This document shows positions 48,853-52,070 of a stretch of DNA of 64,000 nt, one piece after another. The DNA is from Acidihalobacter prosperus (lineage in GTDB: Bacteria > Pseudomonadota > Gammaproteobacteria > DSM-5130 > Acidihalobacteraceae): NCBI RefSeq assembly GCF_000754095.2, contig NZ_JQSG02000003.1, positions 547,397 to 611,396 on the forward strand. Reading direction: 5' to 3'. Under the pieces are notes generated by a model. It was given only the letters and a program-made list of their open reading frames with translations. It had not been told where the DNA came from and made no database searches. Numbering within the stretch: position 1 is the first letter of the stretch; each line of letters opens with the position of its first letter. The position numbers and the translations under genes are program-made.

Positions 48853-50315
48853 AGTACCGCGATCTCAGGGATTTCATGCGCCAACTCGAGTCGCGCGGTG
48901 AATTGCGACGTATCGCGGTGGAGGTCGATCCCGTACTTGAGATGACGGAGATATGCGACCGCATACTGAGAACCGGCGGGCCAGCGCTTCTGTTCGAAAA
49001 TCCGAGGAACCACCAGATTCCGGTACTGGCGAATTTATTCGGTACACCGGAGCGCGTGGCGATGGGTATGGGCGAGGAATCGGTCGAAGCCCTGCGTGAA
49101 GTCGGCAAGTTGCTGGCATTCCTTAAGGAGCCCGAACCGCCAAAGGGACTCAAGGCAGCATGGAAGAGCCTGCCCATATTCAGAAAAATTCTCGATATGG
49201 CGCCTAAACTGGTGACGGCTGCGCCTTGCCACGAGGTGGTGCTCGAGGGTGACGATGTCGATCTCTCACGCCTTCCGGTGCAAACATGCTGGCCCGGAGA
49301 TGCGGGTCCGCTGATCACGTGGGGACTGGTTACAACCAGGGGTCCATGCAAGGAGCGACAGAATCTGGGCATCTATCGGCAACAGGTAATAGGGCGAAAT
49401 CGGGTGATCATGCGCTGGCTGTCGCATCGTGGTGGCGCGTTGGATTTCCGCGACTGGCAGAAGGCACACCCTGGCGAGGGTTTCCCTGTCGCGGTAACGC
49501 TAGGCGCCGATCCGGCCACGATCCTGGCGGCGGTTACGCCGGTGCCCGACAGCCTGTCCGAATATGCGTTTGCCGGTTTGTTGCGTGGCAGCAAGACCGA
49601 ATTAACGCAGTGCCTGGGCTCGGACCTGTCCGTGCCTGCGTCGGCAGAAATCGTGCTTGAAGGGCGTATCATGCCCGACGATGAGGCCGATGAAGGGCCG
49701 TTTGGCGATCATACGGGTTATTACAACGAAGTCGATCGTTTCCCCGTTCTGACCGTGGACCGGATGACCCATCGGCGCGACCCCATCTACCATAGCACCT
49801 ACACCGGGCGCCCACCGGACGAACCTGCCGTGCTGGGCCTTGCGCTCAACGAGGTCTTCGTGCCGCTGCTGCAAAAGCAGTTTCCAGAAATCGTCGACTT
49901 CTATCTTCCGCCGGAGGGCTGTTCGTACCGGATGGCCGTCGTCAGCATGCGCAAACAGTATCCTGGGCACGCCAAGCGCGTGATGATGGGCGTTTGGAGC
50001 TTCCTGCGGCAGTTCATGTATACCAAGTTCGTGATCGTCGTGGACGAGGACATCGACACGCGGAACTGGCAGGATGTGATCTGGGCCGTCACCACACGCA
50101 TGGATCCGATACGAGACACGGTCCTTATCGACAATACGCCCATCGACTATCTTGATTTCGCATCGCCCGTGTCTGGACTCGGCTCCAAAATGGGCTTGGA
50201 TGCGACCAGCAAATGGCCTGGAGAGACGCAACGGGAATGGGGGCGCCCCATCGAGATGGATGAGGGCGTGAAGGCTCGCGTCGATGCGCTCTGGCCCAGC
50301 CTGAATCTGGGCTGA
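48849..50315 (+). CDS. ubiD: 4-hydroxy-3-polyprenylbenzoate decarboxylase
   Basis: A 488-residue UbiD (E. coli 497) that decarboxylates the ubiquinone precursor using prenylated FMN made by UbiX (not in the window). Markers: [20 protein letters not shown], the D/E-rich active-site segment with the conserved R-E-E residues ([16 protein letters not shown]), and the C-terminal [15 protein letters not shown]. The ATG at 48849 overlaps the xth stop. Confidence 0.97.
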
Positions 50316-50366
50316 TCCGCTTACGGGCCAAAACCAACACCAAAAACCAATACAAGGAGATCTCCC

Positions 50367-50513
50367 ATGCGTCGTCTGGGATTTGTGCTGACGGGTATCT
50401 GGTTGCTGCTGACGGGACTCAGCACACTGGTGCACATACGTTTTGAATATCGTGAGTTGCTGATGTCTGCTTTGGCGGTGGTTGCGGGGATCATGCTGAT
50501 TCTGCAACGATGA
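50367..50513 (+). CDS. 48-residue small membrane protein
   Basis: A short frame, MRRLGFVLTGIWLLLTGLSTL..., with a textbook AAGGAGA ribosome site 6 bases before the ATG and a TGA at 50511-50513. Two hydrophobic segments (about 5-22 and 33-46) are separated by a short charged turn (HIRFEYREL). Small two-helix proteins of this type are widespread and unnamed; no function can be inferred. It is only 51 bases after ubiD and may be in the same transcript. Confidence 0.7.
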   Translation: MRRLGFVLTGIWLLLTGLSTLVHIRFEYRELLMSALAVVAGIMLILQR

Positions 50514-50591
50514 CCGACCGCCGGTCCGTCATCGACGGCCGTTAGTCGACGAACTTGCCATCATCGGGAGCTTTCGCCTAACATCCATAGA

Positions 50592-50685
50592 CCGAATAGG
50601 GAAAAGGCAAACCCGTCGAAAGGCGGGGACGCAAAGCCAGGGGTCTACAGCTCGTCATGAGCCATGACAGCCGGTTGCCACAGCG
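50592..50685 (+). promoter_or_regulatory. GEMM-I (c-di-GMP class I) riboswitch
   Basis: All conserved blocks of the GEMM-I aptamer are present in order: GGCAAACC (50605-50613) in J1/2, a P2 hairpin capped by GAAA (CCGTC-GAAA-GGCGG), the invariant GACGCAAAGCC, a P3 arm with its own hairpin (GCTC-GTCAT-GAGC), and the 3' AGCCGGTTGCC that pairs back with GGCAA. By my alignment the ligand-contacting G20 is guanine, which favours c-di-GMP over cGAMP. The start codon of the secreted-protein gene lies ~105 bases downstream. Confidence 0.92.
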
Positions 50686-50790
50686 GATGAGATCCGTGGT
50701 GAATCTCCGACTCACTAAAGGTGCGGCGACGGATGACTATGCGACGGCTTGGGACTCCCTACCGATAAGTATATGAAGAGGGAGCTTGCG

Positions 50791-51135
50791 ATGAACCGAT
50801 TGAGCGGTATCCGTGCGTGGGCACTGGCCCTTTGCATGGCCATGCCGGCGCTCGCCGTAGCCAATACGGAGTTCGATCTGCCGCAGGACAACAGCCTGAC
50901 CTGGACATTGGTCGGAGCGCAGGCTCGGGCGGTTGCACCCGGGCTTCTGGTCAATGATGTCCGCATGCGTGCAGGCGGCATTCAGAGCGTCAGCGTCGAC
51001 GGTTACGCCCCGGCAAGATTGGGCTTTTACCTTGGAGCCGCGAGCGATCCGCCGGTTTCGATCGTCGGGCAGGACTTCCGTCCCGATATCGCGGGCAGGA
51101 TCAAGTACGGCTTCTACCTGGTCAGCACCTTCTGA
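50791..51135 (+). CDS. Small secreted protein under riboswitch control
   Basis: A 114-residue protein with a signal peptide (MNRLSGIRAWALALCMAMPALA, cut about residue 22) from ATG 50791, which follows GGGAG. The mature ~90 residues contain no cysteines and a beta-rich pattern (TWTLVGAQARAVAPGLLVND, GYAPARLGFYLGAAS). I do not recognise it. Control by a cyclic-dinucleotide riboswitch suggests a role in attachment, surface or motility, but that is inference. Upstream in-frame ATGs at 50749 and 50773 are weaker. Confidence 0.7.
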   Translation: MNRLSGIRAWALALCMAMPALAVANTEFDLPQDNSLTWTLVGAQARAVAPGLLVNDVRMRAGGIQSVSVDGYAPARLGFYLGAASDPPVSIVGQDFRPDIAGRIKYGFYLVSTF

Positions 51136-51170
51136 CGTCAGGCGTTCGGCGTTCGGCGTTAGTTAGGTGG

Positions 51171-52070
51171 TTAGGCGAGGGTACGCCGCCTGAAAGGGTT
51201 GGCCAATCCGACGTTGGTCAGATAGACCCCGCCGATCACCAACAGTCCGCCCACGACCAGTGAGCCATCGACCACCTCGCCCAGTATCAGGTGCCCCAGC
51301 GTGACCGCGCTGATCGGTACGATATTGATAAAAATGCTGGCGCGAGTGGCGCCGATACGCTTAATGCCCTGGTAGTACCAGACGAATCCCAGGGCGGTGC
51401 CCGCGATACCGAGATATGCGAGATTGCCCCAGTCCATCGCCGTATAGGCCCAGACCGCGCTGGCGACCCCGCCGTGCAGAGCTGGCCACAAGAGCATTAG
51501 CGCGCCTGCCATCGACGAATAGGTCACGGAAGCCAGCGGCGTAAGCCCGCGCATCACCTGTCGGCCGATCAACGAATAGGCGACCCAACTGACCAAGCAT
51601 ACCAAGATGTCCAGCGTGCCGCTGGGCAAACCGCCATCCAGCAGGCGGGCGGGTTCGCCATGCGAGATTACGATCAGAGCCCCGCATAGCGACGTGGCGA
51701 TGCCGAATAACCGCACACCGCTTAACGATTCGCGTAACAGAAGCCAGGACAGCAATGCGATCAGTGCCGGGTTCATGGCGATGGTCGCCGCCGCCCTTCC
51801 GGCGGCGAGTGTTTCAAGTGCCTTGAAGAAAAAAAGGTTGTAAGCGAAAACACCGGTCGCACCCAGCAGCAGAACGGCCAATACTTGACGACCGCCGAGC
51901 CTCGGCAATCCACCCTCGATCAGCTGCGCAAGAAACAAGAGGCAGATCGATGCGAAGGTAAAACGAATGAAAGCGGCTGCGGCAGGATCAACATGGCCGG
52001 ATAGCAGGCGTCCGGAAACGAATGTGCCACCCCAGAAGAGGGCCATCGCGAAAAGTTTGAGATAGGTCAT
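51171..52070 (-). CDS. EamA/DMT-family transporter
   Basis: A 299-residue protein with about ten hydrophobic helices arranged as two EamA repeats. Start ATG 52070 gives MTYLKLFAMALFWGGTFVSGRLL, the typical first helix, and overlaps the epimerase gene stop (ATGA). GGxxLxxxxxxxL-like glycine motifs lie in the last helices (GGLLVIGGVYLTN). Relatives export amino acids or other metabolites; the substrate here is unknown. Upstream frame residues to 52268 are shadow. Confidence 0.9.
   Translation of the reverse strand: MTYLKLFAMALFWGGTFVSGRLLSGHVDPAAAAFIRFTFASICLLFLAQLIEGGLPRLGGRQVLAVLLLGATGVFAYNLFFFKALETLAAGRAAATIAMNPALIALLSWLLLRESLSGVRLFGIATSLCGALIVISHGEPARLLDGGLPSGTLDILVCLVSWVAYSLIGRQVMRGLTPLASVTYSSMAGALMLLWPALHGGVASAVWAYTAMDWGNLAYLGIAGTALGFVWYYQGIKRIGATRASIFINIVPISAVTLGHLILGEVVDGSLVVGGLLVIGGVYLTNVGLANPFRRRTLA

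Follow-up and report, generated by a model that had tools for sequence, protein, structure and literature searches.

The GEMM-I aptamer and its gene

A GEMM-I riboswitch for c-di-GMP probably has a promoter of its own and controls a single gene for a small exported protein in the window, which is the whole stretch of 64 kb of Acidihalobacter DNA that was analysed (G+C content of 62.8%). When the whole window was scanned with cmscan, the aptamer was found on the plus strand at 50596-50682 as a match to RF01051 (c-di-GMP-I, GEMM-I), scoring 82 bits (gathering score 35) with an E value of 1.3e-14. It is the sole match above a gathering score in the window and it is full length, covering model positions 1 to 87 of 87 without truncation. 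The complete c-di-GMP-class aptamer announced by the original prediction was thus recovered, and the covariance search with the Rfam GEMM-I model, which had been proposed there as a check, returned a high score and not a low one.

The genome from which the window comes (G000, 3,359,675 bases) contains a single copy of RF01051. The three orthologous aptamers found in related genomes score 83.5, 80.7 and 68.7 bits, and in the class the model is present in 49 of 274 genomes, with a highest score of 83.9 bits. A search of the own genome for c-di-GMP-II gave no match, and there was no match in the control genomes either. In four genomes, the aptamer lies within the 5' leader of a co-directional gene. 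In the window this gene (50791-51135, plus strand) runs from ATG to TGA and starts 108 bases after the aptamer end, in agreement with the distance of about 105 bases given beforehand. As in Vc2 of Vibrio cholerae (Cd1, the other aptamer used for comparison below, is from Clostridioides difficile), the family model is covered in full length, with P2, P3, the GAAA loop, the conserved core and the selectivity G. Judged from sequence and conservation, the riboswitch itself is ordinary, a genuine and conserved c-di-GMP riboswitch.

A new protein, probably exported

The gene encodes a protein of 114 aa with homologues in the two other members of the genus (60 and 58% identity) and in a second genus (33%). 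Among the three genus members, pS varies from 0.73 to 0.85 and pN from 0.26 to 0.31, with pN falling to 0.07-0.14 in the last 45 columns. Since homologues exist in relatives and pS is well above pN, 50791-51135 is not a chance ORF, and the substitution pattern indicates that the gene is under purifying selection. All four proteins have a short, mostly hydrophobic N-terminus ending in A-x-A-like residues, as seen by eye in the alignment, and we read this stretch (about 50791-50862) as a putative signal peptide. The mature part comprises about 90 residues. Close to its beginning LTW is invariant, and its tail is conserved as GFYLG.A..PP.S.VG.D.R followed by YG.YL, the last residue being Phe.

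No known family was found for this protein. Neither Pfam nor NCBIfam gave a match at E values up to 1, and for three homologues Pfam remained empty up to an E value of 5. In PHROGs there is one weak match (E of 0.094), while a profile of the four homologues retrieved nothing from the PDB sequences at E values up to 10. The structure prediction for the full-length protein has a mean pLDDT of 41. With AlphaFold2 applied to the mature part, from four sequences only, the mean pLDDT is 61.8, and the model contains three strands, with values of 75-83 in blocks from residue 51; Foldseek searches with this model of mean pLDDT 61.8 found no significant match (best PDB E of 1.8). The description of a signal-peptide protein of 114 residues without a recognised family therefore holds, with the signal peptide assigned by eye from the alignment, and the structure prediction that had been suggested for it led to no recognised fold relative in Foldseek. 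The target appears to be a new, family-restricted exported protein without recognised relatives, its place and role being deduced from sequence.

Distribution of the riboswitch-gene pair

Five genomes of the family were compared, and the order likewise counts 5 genomes. Three belong to the genus (G000, the own genome, G001 and G002), one to a second genus (G003), and the fifth (G004) is a draft of 70 contigs, 99% complete. The protein is present in the 3 genus genomes and in 4 of the 5 genomes of the family, and each of these four also has a single RF01051 match. All four carriers have ubiD first, then the aptamer and, directly after it, the gene. Searches of the whole G004 genome revealed no aptamer and no such protein; in our reading of its locus, ubiD is directly followed by a membrane protein resembling a cation antiporter. 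The joint presence in four genomes together with the joint absence in the fifth supports a regulatory link.

A hydrophobic ORF of 48 aa (50367-50513, plus strand) lies between ubiD and the riboswitch. It is conserved among all three members of the genus, was not found in the G003 locus, and has no Pfam or NCBIfam family over the cut-off.

The searches in the class, the phylum and the genome contigs are samples or limited scans. In 369 class genomes, the profile found no convincing homologue beyond the family; the places retrieved were three family members and two weak ones containing stops, with G002 unlisted. In 398 phylum genomes, it found the own genome and one further place (E of 6.7e-4, positions 1-74) in a frame of 468 aa; we did not accept it as a relative and regard the similarity, in the signal-peptide region, as due to chance. 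Scans of genome contigs with the protein and the profile revealed no wider relatives; they also missed known family members, and near genomes were possibly left out of them. As far as searched, the protein appears to be confined to the family. We saw no account of this switch or of its target in the open-access literature; the lone mention of a riboswitch in the Acidihalobacter articles is a reference to a c-di-AMP riboswitch in Bacillus.

Promoter-like site, leader and probable mode of control

The site scan revealed a promoter-like site, TTGCCA and TAACAT separated by 18 bases, at 50555-50584 on the plus strand. It is the one such site in 50200-51300, against 0.4 on average in shuffles, and it ends 11 bases upstream of the aptamer, with a predicted transcription start near 50591. 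All three genus members share the spacing and, apart from one change in G001, the hexamers; in the G003 locus the site was not seen. The next downstream gene is on the opposite strand, so the transcribed unit would be one gene.

The scan of the window found no terminator-like site in the 108 bases from aptamer to gene; its one hit is inside the gene. Translational control, or Rho-dependent termination, is therefore likelier than an intrinsic terminator, and translational control seems to be the likeliest mode. In the minimum-free-energy fold, a predicted hairpin (50755-50784, plus strand) pairs CTCCCT with AGGGAG, the likely Shine-Dalgarno sequence at 50779-50784; in G002 and G001 the corresponding pairs are imperfect or displaced. 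When P2 and P3 were forced, the mean exposure of the Shine-Dalgarno region in the four leaders went from 0.38 to 0.38, 0.45 to 0.46, 0.42 to 0.40 and 0.48 to 0.51. As exposure stays the same in all four, a simple Shine-Dalgarno switch finds no support in equilibrium folding. The control of the gene by the riboswitch, as originally proposed, is thus favoured by a pair that is kept together in 4 of 5 family genomes, but not by the predicted access of the ribosome to its site. We also considered a ligand-free fold in which the 3' strand of the aptamer pairs with a segment further downstream, and rejected it, since 829, 879 and 831 of 1000 shuffled leaders reach a pairing of the same length.

The leader of G003 is different, with only 13 bases from the aptamer to the start codon. 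When P1 is forced in models of this leader that begin 6 or 15 bases upstream of the aptamer, the start codon reaches a mean unpaired probability of about 0.6, up from near 0, at a cost of 2.6-5.4 kcal/mol (the overall range of this cost in G003 is 2.3-5.4 kcal/mol). With 40 bases of 5' flank, the forced P1 gives the start codon little or no gain, and P1 is not favoured in the unconstrained model. In this leader, P1 competes for bases with a fold masking the start codon, and this single observation tips our preference slightly towards activation by high c-di-GMP. For Vc2, PMC9262584 describes a translational OFF switch.

The P1 helix and the 3' hairpin

P1, the helix that closes the three-way junction, is not among the pairs of the RF01051 model. 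Its position here is set by the Rfam end coordinates, uncorrected for indels, with pairs counted from model position 84 or 85. On this count, 1, 2 and 2 contiguous P1 pairs are possible in the three genus members and 4 in G003. For comparison we used 68 GEMM-I aptamers of the class (28 + 40 loci), which are part of all class matches and include some from one genome or near-duplicates. A P1 of at least 3 contiguous pairs is possible in 55 of these 68 and not possible in 13, against none of the three genus members.

Folding places a hairpin at 50679-50701 (plus strand), beginning at model position 84, the normal start of the P1 3' strand. A hairpin begins at this position in each genus member, with differing stem sequences and z values of -1.2, -2.7 and -4.4, and it is absent in G003. 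The P1 3' strand is also predicted to pair locally in 28 of the 68 comparison aptamers. For this reason, we rejected the replacement of P1 by a 3' hairpin as a speciality of the genus, and the hairpin may be the usual competing structure. The RNAalifold consensus of three leaders was mixed, many of the pairs in its leader part being broken, and the MAFFT alignment left the 3' hairpin unaligned, so a formal covariation count is not given for it. Beside Cd1, such P1-poor aptamers would offer a further natural test of the need of P1 for ligand binding.

Alternative explanations

Early termination of transcription, by Rho or by an unrecognised terminator, is an unlikely alternative to translational control, although the 108-base leader with its stable hairpin leaves room for it and equilibrium folding does not support a translational switch. 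Cd1 is described as an OFF switch acting on transcription (PMC9262584), whereas no terminator-like site separates aptamer and gene here, and in G003 the 13 bases before the start codon argue further against termination. We regard it as very unlikely that the aptamer is a P1-less, still-transcribed relic that binds weakly or not at all and no longer switches. Such a relic would agree with the nil effect predicted on the ribosome site and with the contrast between 55 of 68 comparison aptamers and 0 of 3 genus members in the possible P1 of at least 3 pairs. Binding is lost in Vc2 without P1 (PMC9262584), and in this need Vc2 differs from the three genus members, which have no canonical P1. However, their aptamers, with 82, 83.5 and 80.7 bits, are near the maximum of 83.9 among the 274 class genomes, and such a P1 is likewise missing from 13 of the 68 aptamers used for comparison. 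Moreover, Cd1 resembles the genus members as a GEMM-I aptamer with no detectable P1, yet is reported to bind c-di-GMP at 0.25 uM (PMC9262584), so P1 is not obligatory for GEMM-I membership. A more far-reaching idea, to which we give little credence, is that the genus aptamer gave up P1 and formed a hairpin of the 3' strand only under the ligand pocket, becoming a P1-independent translational switch whose one target founds a new exported family for a c-di-GMP-controlled surface step, e.g. mineral attachment, in halotolerant acidophiles.

A further alternative concerns the ligand, since the original prediction had left a GEMM-Ib (cGAMP) specificity open. GEMM-Ib aptamers are cGAMP riboswitches, such as that of pilM in Geobacter; they share the GEMM-I architecture observed here, but the natural ones carry A at the selectivity position. 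We take Rfam model position 11 as the equivalent of G11 in Cd1 and G20 in Vc2. All 4 aptamers, the one of the window (position 50606) and its three orthologues, have G here, and none has A. cGAMP synthases have Ser in place of an Asp in their GGDEF domains. The own genome has 47 GGDEF matches, of which 38 were read and nine left out; the motif GHxxGD with the usual Asp is present in 37 of those read, the 38th has GRAIGD, also with Asp, and no Ser-type domain was found among these 38 of 47. A G20A mutant of GEMM-I binds cGAMP (PMC6274999), and PMC9262584, which equates G11 of Cd1 with G20 of Vc2, regards this base as a factor in selectivity rather than as a hard filter. This latter point and the 9 of 47 domains outside the set read would leave some room for an aptamer that senses mainly cGAMP or is promiscuous; with G and not A in all four aptamers and Asp in 38 of 38 domains, we consider it highly improbable. 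The c-di-GMP class of the original prediction thus stands, its GEMM-Ib alternative is disfavoured, and c-di-GMP is clearly the better reading of the ligand, with binding predicted from these positions.

At model position 11, A was found in 7 of the 68 comparison aptamers (L022, L027, L028, L034, L078, L093 and L112, with L034 and L078 from one genome), provided that no indel shifts the count. These A-bearing aptamers of the class are possible cGAMP sensors outside the Geobacter group. The numbers of GGDEF matches from G000 to G004 are 47, 57, 51, 26 and 11, the fewest being in G004, which is also the genome without riboswitch and gene.

Proposed mechanism

With translational control by c-di-GMP as the preferred reading, transcription would start about five bases before the aptamer, which would fold while the RNA emerges. 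The fold of the 108-base leader, and with it the access of the ribosome to the start codon, would then depend on whether c-di-GMP is bound. The protein would act outside the inner membrane, most likely in the surface-attached state, as suggested by the usual role of the c-di-GMP signal. The genome thus combines 47 GGDEF matches with a single detected GEMM-I aptamer and one orphan exported target. A lone aptamer before an orphan protein makes this protein a well-marked entry into the c-di-GMP control at the surface of its hosts, probably bioleaching, halotolerant acidophiles.

Other GEMM-I loci in the class

One class genome (G170) contains 15 RF01051 matches on several contigs. In another class genome (G058:C36:975-1279), two RF01051 matches are found on one strand, 139 bases apart, and could form a tandem riboswitch. 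In L019, on the minus strand, a signal-peptide protein of 109 aa without Pfam family is encoded 61 bases after a GEMM-I aptamer. We rejected it as a relative of the 114-aa protein, since the hhalign probability is 0.2% and no relation is shown. The same locus contains a match to the anti-hemB sRNA with 50.7 bits.
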